In this document: piece by piece, positions 54,082 to 63,897 of the stretch
Numbering within the stretch: position 1 is the first letter of the stretch
How the letters are laid out: every line of letters begins with the position of its first letter
NCBI GenBank assembly: GCA_938015455.1
Contig: CALLPL010000004.1
Span: forward strand, 1 to 64,000
From: an uncultured Candidatus Altimarinota bacterium
GTDB lineage: Bacteria; Patescibacteriota; Gracilibacteria; BD1-5; UBA6164
Length of the DNA stretch: 64,000 nucleotides
Direction: 5' to 3'
Notes under the pieces: generated by a model
What the model was told of the DNA's origin: nothing
Database searches by the model: none
The model's input: only the letters and a program-made list of their open reading frames with translations
Made by a program: the position numbers and the translations under genes

Positions 54082-56112
54082 TTATGCTTTCGAAATAGTA
54101 TATTTTCAACTAGTGACCCCTCAATCTTCAGTGGGAATATCTGATACAACTGACTCATTATCTATTAGTTTAATGAGGAGATTAGCAACATCTTTTTTGG
54201 GGAGTGAAATTTTTTCTTTTTGTTCACCCCAAATCCTTACTTTTGCTTTCACTCATAAGGTTAAATTTTGAGATGATATTTCAGCTGTATCGAGAGTTAT
54301 TTTCTCAATAGTGGCACGATCATGAGTAACTCAAGAAAAGCTTATATTATAAGGAACTTCTCCAAGAAAAAATTGTCAGTTCTTGTAATCAAGAGAAGTA
54401 GGAGTTGGTATACCTAGATCATTGCATGCATCTTGTTCTTCATACGCAAGTATCACGGGGAACTTTGTTGCTTCTAGTAGAGCTTCACGAATCTCGATAT
54501 TTCTATATGCTGTAAACTGTTCTCTGAATGCATTCCTCTCTGCCTCAGTCATAACAGGTGTTTCATGACTTTGCTCTGCTTGAGTAGTCCTGTCTGTTTT
54601 TGTATTAGGAGTATCTTTTGCCTTAAGAGTTGTGGATTCTACATAGGGTATAGCATCACTTCTCTCTACTGTAGTAGGAACTACATCGTAGCCTCAAACT
54701 TCAGAAGCTCCTTCATCAGTTTTTGTTTCATTATTACTAGCTGTAGCCTCTGCAGTATCTCAAGCAGCTGTTACTGCTAGGGTACTTGCTCATCACGAAT
54801 ATGCTGTTAAACTTTTTTTAAGTTCTGCTTTTTTTCTTTTAAGTTCTGCTTGCTTGACTTCTTGTTTTTTCTTTGGAAGAGAGTTTAGCTTCTCTATCAT
54901 TCATTTTCACTCATTTTTAAAATCTTCTTTTGTGAAAATAGTTCCCTTTTCATCTGAGAGGAGCGAATAAAAGCCCTTTACTTTTAGATTATCTGTATCT
55001 CAACTGAGGAGATTTTTCCAGAAGCTTTCATGGGTGAAATCAATTTTTTGACTATTCAGGTAGTCAAAGAATGGATCAAGTTTTTTAAAATCAAAGTTCG
55101 TAAAAAATCAGTCAGGAATCATTCCAGATACAGAATTTCCAGTTGTAGAGCTGAGTTCTGAGAGCTGCGCGAGGGAATCTCCTCTTTTTTTACTATTTAC
55201 ATCGATAAATCATTCAAGGAGATCACCAAGTCAGAGCATAGAGAGGAGTATTCCTAGCCAAGGATTTTCCTTTGCGTACTCTCCTAGTTTCTTCCCAAAG
55301 TCATCTCAAGCAAATTTTCGTATCATTCCTCATATAGAAGCATCCATATCCTTAATTCTTTCCGCATATTTTTCAGTTTTTTTCCGAGTTTCATTATAAT
55401 ACGCTTCGTGATTTGTATTGAGGAGTCTGAGTTTTTCAGGATCATTCTCTCCCCTGTATATAGCATCAATGATACTCGCATTTGTAAAATCAATGTCTTT
55501 TTTCCCAGTTGGAGTTACTGAGTTATATACCTTATTTGTTCTCACAGTAAAGTCTTCGATCTCTTGGAGCATTTCACTAATAAGAGTTTCTCCAGAACTT
55601 TCTTCTACTTCTTTTCAATCGGATCATAGGCTGACTACATGCATTACTCACTCTGCTGCGAGGGTTCATACATCGTCTATATGCTTGATCCATCTCCTCC
55701 ATACAGGGAGCATCATCGTGTTACGAATCTCAGGTGGGAGGTTCGGGGCTTTCTCATTTACTATCCCTTCAAATTGCTCCTGGAAGAATGCCATAGACTT
55801 TCACGTTGCGATATAACTTCCATATTCCTCTTTGAGACTTGCGAAGTTTTTCCCGTTTGGGAGTACTTCTACACTTTCTTGAGAAAATAAAGTATTCTGC
55901 GCTTTGATCAATATAGCTTGGTCTTCTCATTCATGGTTCGAAATAGCATCACTCAGTACTTGTCGAAGAGGATCCTCTATAAGATCTTGCTGCTGTTCAG
56001 CTGGAAGAGCCTTTATCTTATCTGCAAGTTCTCAAATGATTTGTGCCTCATTAGAGCCTTCAATTCCCCCTTCGATAACAGCGCTAAGGGATGCTTTTAT
56101 TTCGTTTGACAT
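54082..56112 (-). CDS. Giant-operon protein F (676 aa), unknown
   Basis: 677 codons with TGA = Gly. It is largely helical and soluble-looking, opening M-S-N-E-I-K-A-S-L-S-A-V-I-E-G-G. A single mildly hydrophobic segment lies near residue 300 (P-W-L-G-I-L-L-S-M-L-G-L-G-D-L-L). A Lys/Glu coiled coil follows (K-K-K-Q-E-V-K-Q-A-E-L-K-R-K-K-A-E-L-K-K), then a Thr/Ser/Glu-rich low-complexity linker (residues ~440-520) and a C-terminal beta-like domain of ~130 residues. It begins 22 bases after gene G, so the two form one transcription unit. The family is not recognised. Confidence 0.78.
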
Positions 56113-56134
56113 AATATATTTGTATTAATATTTT

Positions 56135-58990
56135 TTATTTTAATTTTCCTAAGGCCTCCTCATATGCTCTTTTTGTTTGAGGATTACGGTTTAGCATACT
56201 TTTAACAACACCTTCATTTAAGGTAATCCCCTTACTATTTTGTACTACTATATTTCCAGCAGGATCTCTACTTATAGTAAAGCTTTTTCCTGAAGCTGAA
56301 GTAAATGGAACTTCAGTTCGTGTTGATATAGTTTCAATTCTTTGCGGTCTTGTTGTTCTCATATCTTCTATTCTTGGTTGATTTTCTTGCGTGATACGAC
56401 GCTGAGGTTGAGTTGTTTTAACTCATGAACTTTTTCCAAGAGGGGGGAGAACTTGTCATATAAGTACTCATGGGTTTTCTCAGGTTGTTTTAGTCCTGGT
56501 TCCTATAACTCAACTAGCTTGAGCACGAAGTGGTCATTGCTGTGAAGCTAATTGCTCAGCAGTAACGGTTCTTGTTTCAATAGTTGTTCTTGCTTCTGCC
56601 TTAGGAACGTTTCTACCGATAGAAATTGGTTCAACTTTAATTGTATTTATTGGTCAAGTAGGAGTAACTCATATACTCCCATCCTTTGTTCTAGATAACT
56701 TGATTCTATCTACAGCCTTCCCAGCTCACTTGAGAGCAGCCACCATTATAAGTGCTTGCACAAACTCTTCCCAAGTGTAGTTCTCGATATCTCTATCTGT
56801 ATCTCCAAATTGAATTTCTATTTCTTGACTTACTCAAACGAGAGCTGCGGCTTGAACAGTTATGGATCAAATTCACTTGAGTCATCGAGTAAATTTATTT
56901 ATATTCATTTTATCCCCTATCCTTGTGCTTCATAGTTTTCATAGAACTGGTCTGAGTACTCAGAGTGCTCCGAAAAATGCTACAGATTTACGTATTTCAT
57001 GAATATCCCCTGAGCCTTCGAAAAATCCTGATGTAAATACATCATCCTTTCGTAACATATTATGAAACGGATTACTTGCCTCATAAAATGCGAGCCCTCA
57101 TATTGATGACTTTCCTCACCAAGCTCAAACAGTTCATACTCATCGAACGAATTTATTTGATGAGTCTGTAATTTTTCCAGCACCAAGTGCTCTAGCTCCT
57201 ACAGAAACTCACTTGATTAAAGCGCTTGCAGCAACAGCCCCAACTCCAAGAGGGAGTAAGCTTGTTACTGCTATAAGACTCAGATCAATTGCAGCATCAA
57301 TATTTTCATCAGCCATATCGATCCAATCCCAGGTACTTGATTCAGCAAGCCCACTCATATCAGCGTAGAGTCATTGGAGGTTATCCGTTCATCCTCTATC
57401 ATCTTCCTTTGCTACAAGTCTATAAACAAAACTGTCTTTCATATATGCTTCAAGAGCAATTTGAATTTGTGTATCTGCTACTTCTGAGAGTACTAATTCA
57501 GGTTTTCCTGCTGCTTTAAGTTTTTTATTTGCTGCGTCTACTTGCTCAGCGAGGAGATCATAGTTTTCAACCTTCATAATCTTTCTCCGTATTTTACTAA
57601 AAGATGTTGAAAGTTCAGTTACTATATCATTAAGTTCTGCGGGATTAAACTCTTTTGGTAGAGCCTTGTTTATAAGCTGTTTTATCTCATCCTTTTTACC
57701 ATTTTTGATCAGTTCTACAAAATCAGCACTTTGCAGTAAATCTTGCACTCCTTCATAGTATGGTTTTTGAATAAGTCTATCAGTAACAAAGCCTTTTATA
57801 AGCTGACTATCACCATTTTGAGACCAGCCAGTCCTTGTGAGATTATACATTTGGATAAGCTTTTCTTCTTCGGCCATGCTAGGATTATTAGTAAGAAGAT
57901 CAGATACAGTATGAATATTATCCAAAATATCATTTCCATAAACATCAGGGTTACTAGCTCCTAGATAAGCATCCTGTCTTTTATCATATTTCGCCATTTC
58001 CGCAAATATGCTTTCTACTTCTGCTTTTCCATCATTTCAAGGAGTATTAATTGCAATAATTAATTTAGCTGTGAGTTCTTCTATAGTCTTCATTGATTCT
58101 CTCATCTCTTCATCTCCACTTCTAAAGGATTTAAAATACAGTCCTTCAACAGTTTTTTCAGCCTTAAGTTTCCAAATTGCGATGTACTCTGAGAGACCAG
58201 GGTAGGCTTTTTCTATACTCTTTATTTTTTGTACTTCAGAGATTCTTTCTTCTCCATCTTCATGGGCTAACCAGATCACTCAATCTCTCAGTATGTAAGT
58301 AGTTTCATCTGGATTTTCTTCAGAAGCTTCATAGCTAGGTTTTGCTACATCAGGTTCTTTTCATTCATCAGGGAGAGTCTCATTTTGGTATGGTTCATCT
58401 GTGAGTGGTGTATCCCCATAGTTTGGAGGAGAATCATCATATGGGAGCTCTCCTGTTTCAGGTTTTACTAAGGCTTCAGGAGCTTTTTCAGCATCATCTG
58501 GGGCAATTACTTCTGGCTTATAACTAGGAGTAACGCTACCTGGAGATGCTTCATAAGATGGCTCTTGTTCGGTAGTAATTATAGGAGCTTCAAGTTTAGG
58601 AGCCCTTACATAATCTGCTGCGACATACCCAGTACTTCCATCCGGAAGTGATACGTGAATATAGAGTTTTCCATTTTCAGCAATAAGGTGATCATTTCAA
58701 TCTGTATTAATAACTCGAAGTTCTCTGTCATCTTCTATTCTTTTCCCTGTATCTGTATCATTAAAGGTATTAACTACAGCAGCAGTTCTCACTATTAATC
58801 TTCCCGCATCTCATGAATCAAAAGTATGAACAGTAACAGTATCTACTTTTGAAAAGATCTCTCTCTCTAGTAAGGCAATATCAGTTCTTGATGCATTTAG
58901 TACAGGAGAGTTATCTATATGGTCCTGTATAGATGCCTCATCTGTTACTTCTGATCTAAAGTCAGGAGTATTTTTTAGGGACATAAACAT
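56135..58990 (-). CDS. Giant-operon protein G (951 aa) with an SH3-like region
   Basis: 952 codons with TGA = Gly. Residues ~50-140 look like a bacterial SH3 (SH3b) domain: G-R-L-I-V-R-T-A-A-V-V-N, then R-E-L-R-V-I-N, and D-G-S-T-G-Y-V-A-A-D-Y-V-R at the end. Such domains usually bind peptidoglycan or peptides. A Pro/Glu/Tyr-rich linker with repeated P-S-Y-E-A-S and P-S-Y-K-P motifs follows (residues ~145-235), then a helical part. A hydrophobic Ala/Gly-rich segment near residue 560 (L-I-A-V-T-S-L-L-P-L-G-V-G-A-V-A-A-S-A-L) and further Gly-rich membrane-like stretches precede a basic tail. First gene of the cluster. Start ATG at 58990, or two codons later. Confidence 0.78.
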
Positions 58991-59158: not shown

Positions 59159-60061
59159 ATGCTCCCAAGACTCTTTAAATACGCGACAAAAAACATTCTC
59201 AGGAATAGTTTTTTAAGTGCTTCATCAGTTCTAATACTCACACTATTGATGTTTTTCATAAATATCCTTATTGTGATGCATGATGTGAGTTTTCGCTTAA
59301 TAGAGTGAATTAATGAGAAGCTTACTATTTCTCTCTATCTTGATGAGGAATATGATAGAAATTCAGTAGAGGTTATTGATCTCCAGTCAGATATCGATAC
59401 AGCAATCCCAGGGATAGAGGTTACCTACAAGACCAAAGACGAAGTTCTGGAAGAAATTAGAGAGCGTGATCCAGAACTTGTGAGAATACTTGAAAGACAA
59501 AACCCCCTTCCTGAAACTATTACTATAGAGGATATTCCTCTGAAACAGTACGGAGTTCTGAATAAAATTATTGAGAATAAGCTCTTTGTTCTCTCTGATT
59601 CAGAGGAGTTTGGGGAAGAATACTTTTCTACCTATTCTCGTCAGTTTGAGCGTATTAATAAAGTAATTTCTGTTCTTGATATGCTGCAGATAGGGCTTTA
59701 TATTGTTATTGTTACTTTTGTTGTTTCTATTGCGATTATTGTATATTCGATTATCGGGAATTTTATATACTATTACAGAGACGAGATATATATAACGAGA
59801 CTTGTATGAGGGAGTAAAGTCTTTATCTATGGACCATTTTCACTTCAAGGAATGATGTATGTTGCTCTTGCATTCATATTTTCGACAATATTTTTTATTC
59901 TCTTCCTGCAAAATATTCAGATAGTATTCGAACTTGGAGATATAAATGAAGTTTATACGGGAGATCTTCCATTTGTTCTCATGATAGAAGCGTTGGTGTT
60001 CCTCTTTATTGGGTGACTTAGTTGATTCCTCTCATCACGAAGATATATACGAAAAAAATAA
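59159..60061 (+). CDS. ftsX: Cell division protein FtsX
   Basis: A 300-residue membrane protein with the FtsX layout: a basic cytoplasmic start (M-L-P-R-L-F-K-Y-A-T-K-N-I-L-R-N), the first span (residues ~20-42), an extracellular domain of ~125 residues containing R-Q-N-P-L-P-E-T (the family's conserved N-P-L-P), then three more spans (about 170-195, 225-248 and 270-288). FtsX normally works with the FtsE ATPase to activate peptidoglycan hydrolases at the septum. No ftsE is adjacent, which is unusual. It starts a plus-strand operon and is 7 bases from the next gene. Confidence 0.88.
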
Positions 60062-60068
60062 CTAAACT

Positions 60069-62456
60069 ATGATATTTAGATCACATTGACTACTTGGTCA
60101 AAATGCCCGTAATTTGCAGTATATTAAAGGGGAGAGTTTTCAAATTGCAAAGAAATTGGCTGATTCAAAACTTACAACTAAAAAGTTTCTTGCAAGTCAT
60201 AAGGTTGCAGTTCCAGAGACACTTTGAATAATAAAAAGCCATTGAGAGGTCAGCATAGACAAGATTAAGGCCTATGCTCCTCCATTTGTTATAAAGCCAA
60301 ATAACGGCTATGGTTGAAAAGGGATTTTAGTTATAGATTCACTCAGCGCAGAGGGGAGATTTATCACTAACTCATGAGAATCTTTTTCTCCTCAAGAACT
60401 TTCAGAGCATTTTGTCTATATACTTGATGGGTTTTTTTCACTCTCTGGTGGGAGAGATAAAGTTATTATTGAAAAGAAGGTTGTCCTCACAAAAGAGATA
60501 GAACTCCTTGGGAAATATGGACTTCCAGATGTGCGAATTGTAGCATACAATATGGTTCCAGTGATGGCCATGATACGTATTCCAACAGAAGAATCAGACG
60601 GAAAAGCAAATATCCATGTTGGTGCCTGTGCTGCCGGAATAGATATTGGTACATGAGGTTTGACCTATATTTCACACCATGGAAAGATAGTAAAATCAAT
60701 TCCTGGGATATGAGATGTCCGGGGAATTATCATCCCTGAGTGGGATAAGATTCTTTCTCTTGCTGTTCAGGTTCAACAAGTTTCTTGAATCAAGTTTCTT
60801 GGCTGCGACGTTGTACTCGATGAAAATGACGGACCTCTCTTGCTTGAGATAAATGTTCGACCTGGACTTGAGATACAAAATGTAAATTTAGCACCCCTGA
60901 GAGCGCGTCTTAATAAAGTAGAGTGAGTGGATATTTCTTCGGTAGAAAAAGGAGTTCGTCTATGAAGAGATCTCTTTTCATGAGATATAGAAGAAAGAAT
61001 AAAGAGCTTGTCTTGAAAAAAAGTAGCAGGGTCACAAGAGTACTTAAAAGTTATTTACGAAGAAAAAACCTATAACTATATTGCAGATATCAGGATATCT
61101 GTACTCGAGAGTTTTATTGACCGCGAGTTTGCAGCAAATATTTTAAAGATAGATGTAGAGAGTAAGAGCAGTATTCGTTTAGATTCTGAAATACTTGGAA
61201 TAAAGAGACCTCTGAGGTTTGTGCTGAGCGACTTAGAGGGAGAAAAAATCCGACTTTGAAAACAAGCACTTAAGGGCTTTTTAATTGATCCTTATAAATA
61301 TAAAAAATGAGAAACTCCTTTTCTTCCGGAATCTACATGAAAGAAACAAAAAAATACTGCAATTACTAAAACGCATGAGTCTCAACTTATCGCTCTTGAT
61401 AAGGCAATAATGAAGGTTGATAAAAAACTGCTCATCCTCAAATACCTTACTCCCAGTAACATTGTTGAACAAAAACAGATATTTGTAGAAAAATCAGGGG
61501 ATTATGTTCCAAGCTTTGAGTATAAGAATATTGAACTAGATTTAGACGATCTATATGCTGAGATTAGAGCAATCGAAATACCAGATATTCCCCTCTCTGA
61601 AATTTATCTTACAAAACAACAGGAAGTTAGTGACAAAATACGCTTTCTAAAAGCATTCAGAGATCAAGATGCTTCGGATATGACCCTGTATAGTAAAAAA
61701 ATCTTTGGAGAAGTTGTAGACGATAACTTCGCAAAAGCGAAAGAAATAATCTCTACTCGTGATAGTGTTATCGAGGAAGAAGAAATTCTGAGTTATGAAG
61801 ATATCAAGGATTACATGAAAAAATTTAATCATATATATAATATTAAGGTAAAGATAGTAGAAGCTGATAGTACTGCTCGTTTTACTATGAAGGGTGATAC
61901 TCTGATGTTCCGAAGATGAGCAACTGTATGAAAACGAGAGATGCGATCAATTATTGCTCATGAAATAGAAGGTCACTATTTACGAAAGGTAAATGGTCGA
62001 AAGTCAGAGTTTTCTATTCTGGCCCGCTGAACTGCAAAATACATAGAGACAGATGAGTGACTTGCAATATATAACCAAAACAGGTTTGTAAGTGAGAGTG
62101 ATAGGAAATATTACTCTATCTTTGAGAGATACTATTTTGTACAATATGCTCTTAAGCATTCCTATAAAAGACTTATAAAGCACTTGGCTGAGTTTTATGA
62201 TAATGATTATGAGAGAGTATTTACTTTTATGCTCAGACTGAAGCGTGGTTTCGAAGATCCCTCAAAGGAGGGAGTATTTATGAAGGATGTTGTCTATGTA
62301 AATGGCTTTTATTCTGTGACCGACTACTTAGACAAGGGAGGTTCTCTCAAAGACCTCTACATCTGAAAGGTCCATCTCGACGATCTTGCTCTTATCTCAT
62401 GAGATACTTCTTTCACAAAACATAAAAAAGATGTGGTGATACCTTTTTCTGCGTAA
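60069..62456 (+). CDS. Fusion of RimK-related ATP-grasp ligase and DUF1704 (QEGLA / MATCAP-like) metallopeptidase
   Basis: A 795-residue protein. Residues ~1-310 form an ATP-grasp of the alpha-L-glutamate-ligase-related type: N-L-Q-Y-I-K-G, the P-F-V-I-K-P-N-N-G-Y-G-G-K-G nucleotide loop, and L-L-E-I-N-V-R-P-G-L-E-I-Q with the metal ligands. After a linker, residues ~440-795 match DUF1704: H-E-I-E-G-H-Y-L-R-K-V-N-G with the zinc histidines (residues 631-636), then E-T-D-E-G-L-A-I-Y (E663), the 'QEGLA' motif. This motif pattern is that of the family to which vertebrate tubulin-tyrosine carboxypeptidase MATCAP belongs. In other bacteria the two activities are usually neighbouring genes. Substrate unknown; amino-acid ligation and removal on the same target is a reasonable guess. 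Confidence 0.85.
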
Positions 62457-62478: not shown

Positions 62479-63897
62479 ATGAATCATAAATTGATAATTG
62501 CTCTCGATAATCTCTCTCCCTGAGAAGCAAAAGAAAGAGTTCAAGATATACTTTCTAAGAATGCAGAATATAAGGGTAGAATAATCTTTAAGATACATGA
62601 TATAGTTGCACTTATATGATTTGAGGGGATATCTGAGTTATTTCAGGATATAGACTGTAGGTTTATGCTTGATCCAAAATGGAATGATATTCCAAATACA
62701 CTTAAGAATTATATTACTCAGCTTCATAGGTCGTGACTCTGAGAAAAAATAGAATATATCACACTTCATGTGAGTTGAGGAAGTGAGATGCTCAGAGTTG
62801 CTCAAGCTACAAAAGATGAATTCCTTCCTAATGCGAAACTCTTAGCTATCACAGCTATGACTTCTCTTGATGATAACGATACCTCGCAAATCTTTGATGA
62901 CACAGCAAAGCATTCAGTACTCAAGCTTACGAAAATAGCTCTTGATGCTGGAATTGAGTGAATTGTTTGTTCGACACATGAAGCTCAGGCTCTCAGAGAA
63001 GTATATGGAAATGATTTTGATCTCATAACTCCTTGAGTTCGTTTTGCTTGAGGTGATCATTGAGATCAAAAAAGAGTCATGACTCCATCGCGAGCAATAC
63101 AGCAAGGGGCTACAAATATTGTAATGGGAAGGCCAATTTTACAGTCAGATGATGTGTGAGAAGCTGTGGCAAGATTTTTTAGAGAAATAGAGGAGGTAGA
63201 ATATTTAACAGAGAATAAGTATGGTTTTGAGAAGATGCTTTATGTATGAGATTGGAAAGAAGTACTTTCTTATATTGGAGCATTCTACTTTCGTCCAAAC
63301 TGAGGAAAATATTGTCGATTTACCTCCAAGGTTATTTCAAATGCATATATAAATATATGAGCGATAGAGAGAAGTTATAGTGTTATTGATAGAGCCACAG
63401 CAGAACTTACTACTCAGGTGCGTGAGAGAGGCATCAAGGCCGATATAGTTGTGTGAGCCCAAATGGGAAGCGTCAGAATATCTCTTGCACTTGCAAAGAA
63501 ACTCTGAATAGATCAATCAATATATACAGAAAAGACAGATAATGATAATAATAACATGGATCTAAAGCGTCACGCAGTAGACTTAACATGACTTAAAATA
63601 ATTTTATCTGAAGATATTGTGAGTCGTGGAACAACGATTGCAAAAATGAGAGAGGTGCTAGAGAACCTATGATGAGAGGTTGTTGCGATTGCATGTGTAG
63701 GGAATAGATACGAACAAGACGAGCAGGATGGGATCCCTATTATTAGCTGCTTTATACCCCCAAAATTTGAACTGTATTGGGATGACGCTACCCCAGAGGA
63801 TCAAAGAAAGGATTTTCCAAGGGTTCCAGATGGAGCTATGATATCAGAAAAACCAAAGAACGATTGGGGGGAGTTAGTTGCAAGTATGAGAGACTAA
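62479..63897 (+). CDS. pyrFE: Bifunctional OMP decarboxylase - orotate phosphoribosyltransferase (PyrF-PyrE fusion)
   Basis: 472 residues covering the last two steps of UMP synthesis. The N-terminal ~235 residues are OMP decarboxylase: I-A-L-D-N near the start, the catalytic D-P-K-W-N-D-I (D65, K67, D70; usually D-x-K-x-x-D-I), L-H-V-S-G-G, and the phosphate loop T-P-G-V-R-F-A-G-G-D-H-G-D-Q. The C-terminal half is OPRTase with the PRPP loop L-S-E-D-I-V-S-R-G-T-T (E378, D379). The order is decarboxylase first, the reverse of animal UMP synthase. Many glycines are TGA. It starts 22 bases after the ATP-grasp fusion. Confidence 0.93.

Follow-up and report, generated by a model that had tools for sequence, protein, structure and literature searches.

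What does a bacterial protein do that carries an ATP-grasp ligase and a metallopeptidase in one chain? The question is raised by a gene at positions 60069-62456 of a 64,000-nucleotide stretch of DNA (contig CALLPL010000004.1, assembly GCA_938015455.1; hereafter the window) from an uncultured Candidatus Altimarinota bacterium. An earlier description made from the letters alone (the sequence-only reading) had seen in it a RimK-related ATP-grasp domain and an intact DUF1704/MATCAP-like peptidase. Both domains and both intact sites were recovered in our analysis, while the description as a two-domain protein had to be revised, since the presumed linker is a decayed retropepsin. The chain has three domains, with two intact sites and a decayed one; the fused proteins form one clade and have one co-occurring membrane partner. 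Our preferred reading, which we hold with about even confidence, is that the product is the cytoplasmic enzyme of the Rlo system in a fused variant with MATCAP, which adds and trims a tag, likely of glutamate, with RloB at the membrane. In Pseudomonas aeruginosa, this system consists of the secreted retropepsin RloA, the inactive transglutaminase-seven-transmembrane (7TM) protein RloB and the ATP-grasp protein RloC (PMC12239564).

Reading frame and enzymatic domains

Checked under genetic code 25, the chain of 795 residues has no stop between its halves: the frame contains 21 in-frame TGA codons and no TAA or TAG, and is broken up when translated with table 11. At seven of the TGA codons (residues 7, 83, 196, 397, 654, 664 and 766), the encoded glycine is invariant in 29/29 homologues. 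Standard-code homologues of the same class (L023, L025-L030), which have no TGA, show the same fusion of ~790 residues and align end to end. Since these relatives carry the fusion unbroken, read-through or a code artefact as its origin was ruled out.

Pfam and NCBIfam profiles placed both families in the one chain, as proposed before, with matches far above chance. Pfam ATPgrasp_ST (PF14397) matched residues 16-285 with 2.9e-54, far above the cut-off, and MATCAP (PF08014) matched residues 472-777 with 2.8e-32. The two NCBIfam profiles that the sequence-only reading had named also matched, though both below their strict equivalog cut-offs: TIGR02291 with 4.7e-70 at residues 4-286 (236 bits over 284 positions, cut-off 314) and TIGR02421 with 5.2e-39 (134 bits, cut-off 339), the profile matches to the peptidase spanning residues 444-777 overall. 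The ligase probably falls within the RloC (TIGR02291) group, not with RimK.

Residues D247, E260 and N262, which on established knowledge of ATP-grasp enzymes we take to be the Mg2+ site, were unchanged in 29/29 homologues, as were H631, E632, H636, E663 and G664 of the peptidase. Throughout the non-redundant set of 74 fused proteins, the H-E-x-x-x-H ... E-G-L-A peptidase described earlier was kept, with the EG recognised in all but one member (Table 1). In a structure model of the whole chain (mean predicted local distance difference test (pLDDT) score 85; predicted template modelling (pTM) score 0.50), residues 6-288 matched RimK (5zct, Z 17.4) and ArgX (3vpb, Z 17.7), and residues 457-795 matched human MATCAP (7z5g, Z 24.6). 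Loss of either active site was looked for: the residues of both were invariant in the 29 homologues and both folds were recovered in the model. Judging from these residues, the ATP-grasp site (ATP and Mg2+ residues) and the MATCAP site are both intact, the latter with its other conserved motifs kept.

A scan of the own genome with PF05618 gave no protein above the cut-off and one MATCAP was found there, so that MATCAP is the only candidate eraser found. In another genome (G012), a second, divergent MATCAP-like protein (THEVLGH, 540 residues, L178:7102-8724) adjoins the fused gene on the opposite strand, and weak paralogue-like MATCAP matches were seen in G003, G004, G005, G008 and G019.

The middle domain

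The region between the two enzymes is a retropepsin fold of the RloA/RimB type without catalytic Asp or flap. A Pfam search with residues 312-412 alone gave no match; the domain was recognised via bridging two-domain homologues and a fold search. In the bridging proteins, which come from Patescibacteria and are 430-510 residues long, the same ATP-grasp is accompanied by a second domain that matches both PF05618 and the profile of the window's middle region, and that NCBIfam labels RloA-like. In the alignment, AKIDTGA of the two-domain proteins corresponds to ADIRISV in the window, where R342 stands in place of the catalytic Asp, and the flap segment is gone. Modelled in isolation, the domain reached a pLDDT of 92, and its best fold matches were RloA (9g58; Foldseek E 3e-5, Z 11.8), RloA2 (9g59) and Lpg0085 (2pma, Z 12.2). 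These RloA and DUF785 matches, at Z 11.8-12.2, outranked Ddi1 and the retroviral proteases. A plain linker between the halves was ruled out by the alignment, the isolated-domain model and the RloA fold match.

The decay is systematic across the fused form. D-[TS]-G is present in 5/74 fused proteins, 41/44 unfused two-domain ATP-grasp-retropepsin proteins and 8/8 free-standing proteins; GRRDL follows the catalytic position at 44-62, 64-109 and 85-95 residues, respectively. In a few fused proteins (L017, L052, L058 and L113), the Asp persists with the flap segment already absent, which suggests that the flap may have been lost first. All three domains are kept by selection. In the one pair of sequences not saturated at synonymous sites, the ratio of non-synonymous to synonymous substitution rates was ~0.03 for the middle domain and 0.08 and 0.065 for the flanking domains.

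Distribution and origin of the fusion

A match was obtained in 64 of 99 genomes, a set made up of the window's genome and those of its relatives. In the named scan, the three-domain form was found in Gracilibacteria, Peregrinibacteria and Peribacteria; a few genomes labelled Magasanik-, Uhr- and Parcubacteria have it as well. The two-domain form occurs in Moranii-, Levy-, Collier-, Kaiserbacteria and others. All fused proteins fell into one clade of the ATP-grasp-domain tree (Shimodaira-Hasegawa-like approximate likelihood ratio test 99), which includes two exceptions, L064 with the gene split into two frames and L157 at a contig end. The simplest reading is that an ATP-grasp-retropepsin protein underwent a single fusion event and that the product then spread laterally to some extent.

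This history also bears on the idea that co-expressed but chemically unrelated enzymes were joined by chance. It is true that a shared substrate does not follow from fusion alone and that a split form of the gene exists (L064). However, the fused proteins form one broad clade in which both active sites are intact in essentially all members, and a third, non-catalytic domain has been retained between the enzymes; we regard a chance fusion as highly improbable.

The statement that ATP-grasp and DUF1704 genes lie side by side in many bacteria did not hold up well, as among the unfused ATP-grasp-retropepsin loci of Patescibacteria only about five adjoin a MATCAP gene (L057, L063, L073, L126 and L137). 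In four proteobacterial genomes with the ligase, PF08014 gave no match, but the controls were equally unmatched, so that no absence is shown. The two-domain gene is followed by one or two more RimK/TTL-like ATP-grasp genes at L130, L134, L137, L147, L149, L156 and L160. At L137, the MATCAP gene closes the multi-ligase operon, and such a layout with extra ligases occurs in many Patescibacteria. Another fused layout, of 922 residues, consists of an RloC-like ATP-grasp, an intact retropepsin and a second ATP-grasp (L040:103-2868).

The membrane partner and the gene neighbourhood

A 7TM_transglut (PF14402) protein is the common neighbour in 68 of ~108 loci, nearly always encoded directly upstream. 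It often carries an outer PKD domain, where the proteobacterial protein has the inactive RloB transglutaminase. Over the 99 genomes, fusion and RloB were both present in 61 and both missing in 33, with five discordant (61/3/2/33; Fisher p 2e-20, a value that ignores shared ancestry); several of these five have partial or weak matches. Presence and absence were also matched inside genera, with three genomes having both and four having neither in g24, and one of each in g20.

The own genome (G000) encodes an RloB-like protein of 531 residues on contig C13 (C13:38162-38752; PF14402 at L174:2679-4274, 3.8e-20), which has PF14402 only; the inactive transglutaminase domain (PF14400) is not present. 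Its gene lies directly after a bacterial sugar transferase (PF02397; L174:1198-4274), and the same pair is found in G002, which suggests a link to glycan priming. In a genome of the same family, that of a code-25 Gracilibacteria relative (G021), no fused protein was found and an RloB-RloC-RloA operon is present (L177:1872-5483), whose RloA has the DTGA motif and a signal-peptide-like start.

At 21 loci of the window's code-25 clade, the upstream neighbour is the FtsX-like gene, in the usual position of the RloB-like gene. This gene and the sugar-transferase pairs in the own genome and G002 would also fit a cell-wall or glycan pathway, in which the ligase attaches amino acids to a peptidoglycan precursor or a lipid-linked sugar and the metallopeptidase is a stem-peptide carboxypeptidase. 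In Pfam, the ligase family is likewise named as associated with sugar transfer, and mutants in rloA show phenotypes in cell shape and with wall antibiotics (PMC12239564). Nevertheless, the fused protein lacks a signal-peptide-like start and should reside in the cytosol, and the characterised relatives of both intact domains target protein or poly-Glu tails, which makes this explanation an unlikely one.

Downstream of the fused gene, the orotidine 5'-monophosphate (OMP) decarboxylase fusion is probably a merely positional neighbour. In it, an orotidine-5'-phosphate decarboxylase precedes an orotate phosphoribosyltransferase-like domain, the reverse of the order in eukaryotic uridine monophosphate synthase, and genes resembling pyrimidine synthesis continue on the contig beyond it. 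On the reverse strand of the window (54082-58990), adjacent genes encode large proteins of 676 and 951 residues with no Pfam match.

Table 1. Positions of the fused gene, its domains and motifs, and the flanking genes in the window.
Feature	Position	Strand	Basis or remark
Fused gene: ATP-grasp, decayed retropepsin and MATCAP, 795 residues	60069..62456	+	code 25, 21 TGA as Gly
ATP-grasp domain, residues 4-290, RloC/RimK-like, PF14397/TIGR02291	60078..60938	+	profiles; RimK and ArgX fold matches
ATP-grasp Mg2+ site (presumed), D247, E260-x-N262	60807..60854	+	invariant in 29 homologues
Retropepsin-like domain of RloA/RimB type without flap segment, residues 312-412	61002..61304	+	alignment, model, fold matches
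Codon of R342 at the catalytic-Asp position of the D-T/S-G-A motif	61092..61094	+	alignment
MATCAP (DUF1704/QEGLA) metallopeptidase domain, residues 445-780	61401..62408	+	profiles; human MATCAP 7z5g, Z 24.6
Zinc motif H631-E632-I-E-G-H636	61959..61976	+	HExxxH in 74/74 fused proteins
Third zinc ligand motif E663-G664 (EGLA), G664 codon TGA	62055..62060	+	73/74 fused proteins
FtsX-like permease gene	59159..60061	+	8 base pairs upstream of the fused gene
OMP decarboxylase and phosphoribosyltransferase fusion (pyrimidine synthesis)	62479..63897	+	downstream; in only 6 relatives

Proposed function

The sequence-only reading had proposed that ligase and peptidase share a substrate, to which the one adds an amino acid and from which the other removes it. 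We infer the same, and this view is strengthened because RimB and the MATCAP/TMCP relatives are both proven deglutamylases (PMC11957791, PMC10499314). The better context is given by the Rlo operon (PMC12239564), which that reading did not name.

In such an Rlo variant, the ligase would attach an amino acid, most likely glutamate, at the expense of ATP. The site of attachment would be a growing oligo-glutamate or, in an envelope-related acceptor, the C-terminus or a carboxylate. The MATCAP domain would trim the added residues, having taken the eraser role over from the retropepsin, and the attachment of a second deglutamylase would explain why the retropepsin could decay. The decayed domain may stay as a built-in binding or activating subunit of the ligase, comparable to RimB activating RimK by contact, and RloB would anchor or read the product at the membrane. 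The output would probably be a reversible, envelope-linked acidic tag. Somewhat more tentatively, we propose a self-contained single-chain writer-eraser in which a carboxypeptidase of the tubulin-code type replaced the decayed protease, now a built-in regulator of the ligase, and which acts together with a membrane receptor on the envelope of these candidate-phylum bacteria.

Several points weigh against this proposal. Substrate and amino-acid specificity are not readable from the sequence, and glutamate is taken from relatives only. In Pseudomonas, RloA is periplasmic and RloC cytosolic, so that writer and eraser there may not share a substrate. The available part of the RimB study holds no report of a catalytically dead RimB still stimulating RimK (PMC11957791). 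Shared ancestry may contribute to the co-occurrence with RloB, the own RloB-like gene lies on contig C13 outside the operon of the fused gene, and the pTM of 0.50 leaves the mutual placement of the domains uncertain.

Two active sites kept in one chain, with the original retropepsin eraser gone, would also be compatible with a protein that prepares and then writes: MATCAP would first trim the C-terminus of the acceptor and the ATP-grasp domain would then extend it, in an irreversible maturation similar to that of cofactors or of ribosomally synthesized and post-translationally modified peptides. We give this the same low weight as the cell-wall explanation. The MATCAP relatives that have been characterised cut back glutamate chains added earlier (PMC10499314), the gain of the domain coincides with decay of a deglutamylating retropepsin, which is easier to reconcile with an eraser, and no conserved precursor-peptide gene was found among the locus neighbours. 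Least probable of all the alternatives is a RimK-like glutamylation cycle of ribosomal protein S6. The RimK fold and the RimB-like middle domain would agree with it, but S6 is disfavoured as acceptor because the own-genome protein ends in ...MFVNLDA, without an acidic tail; moreover, the rim locus has no counterpart of the membrane protein that is the partner here, and the ligase is probably of the RloC group.

For the Rlo variant that we prefer, the joining of ATP-grasp and retropepsin in one chain (RimBK) and the Rlo operon are already known. In the literature covered, we found neither the added MATCAP, the same-chain decay of the retropepsin and an RloB-linked system in Patescibacteria, nor any account of bacterial DUF1704 function or of a ligase-MATCAP fusion; the amidoligase survey of Iyer et al. 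2009, which lay outside this literature, may already note some of the gene associations. The locus ties the family of the tubulin detyrosinase and deglutamylase MATCAP to a bacterial ligase-protease-membrane system, of a type so far known only by its effects on osmotic stress, biofilm and antibiotics. It extends the Rlo system, whose RloB has been described as largely proteobacterial, to Patescibacteria. It also offers a natural experiment, in which fusion of MATCAP goes together with loss of the aspartic protease active site, and a single small protein that allows both writing and erasing to be tested together.

Comparison with known systems

The peptidase domain resembles the TIGR02421 QEGLA proteins over its length (5e-39), but with 134 versus 339 bits it is not an equivalog member. 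With MATCAP/TMCP (KIAA0895L and KIAA0895), which take off the C-terminal tyrosine and cut back added chains of glutamate (PMC10499314), it shares the fold over 277 residues, HExxxH, EG and the downstream KRG and F-x-K-D. Unlike them, it is bacterial, stands in a ligase chain, has 22% identity and has no tubulin known as target.

RimB takes glutamate off S6, binds RimK and raises its ATPase about fourfold, and poly-glutamate synthesis by RimK requires RimB (PMC11957791). As in the RimB-RimK pair and the hybrid RimBK described there, a RimK-like ATP-grasp is joined to a RimB-like retropepsin. In contrast to RimBK, the retropepsin follows the ligase and is decayed, MATCAP is added, there is a 7TM partner and S6 has no acidic tail.

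In the Rlo system, RloA enzymes cleave polyglutamate, and mutations in rloB or rloC rescue an rloA1-3 mutant (PMC12239564); in another bacterium, loss of an RloB-type protein altered vesicle output (PMC12096838). Neither DUF1704 nor QEGLA comes up in the Rlo paper (PMC12239564). The fused protein differs from this system in having ligase, retropepsin and MATCAP in one cytosolic chain, with the retropepsin decayed instead of active and secreted; the RloB relatives have a PKD or PKD-like outer part in place of the inactive transglutaminase, and in the window's genome the RloB-like gene is encoded elsewhere. It agrees with the Rlo system probably in the TIGR02291/PF14397 ligase family, and in RloA as the closest fold of the middle domain and in a 7TM_transglut partner that is often encoded just upstream.
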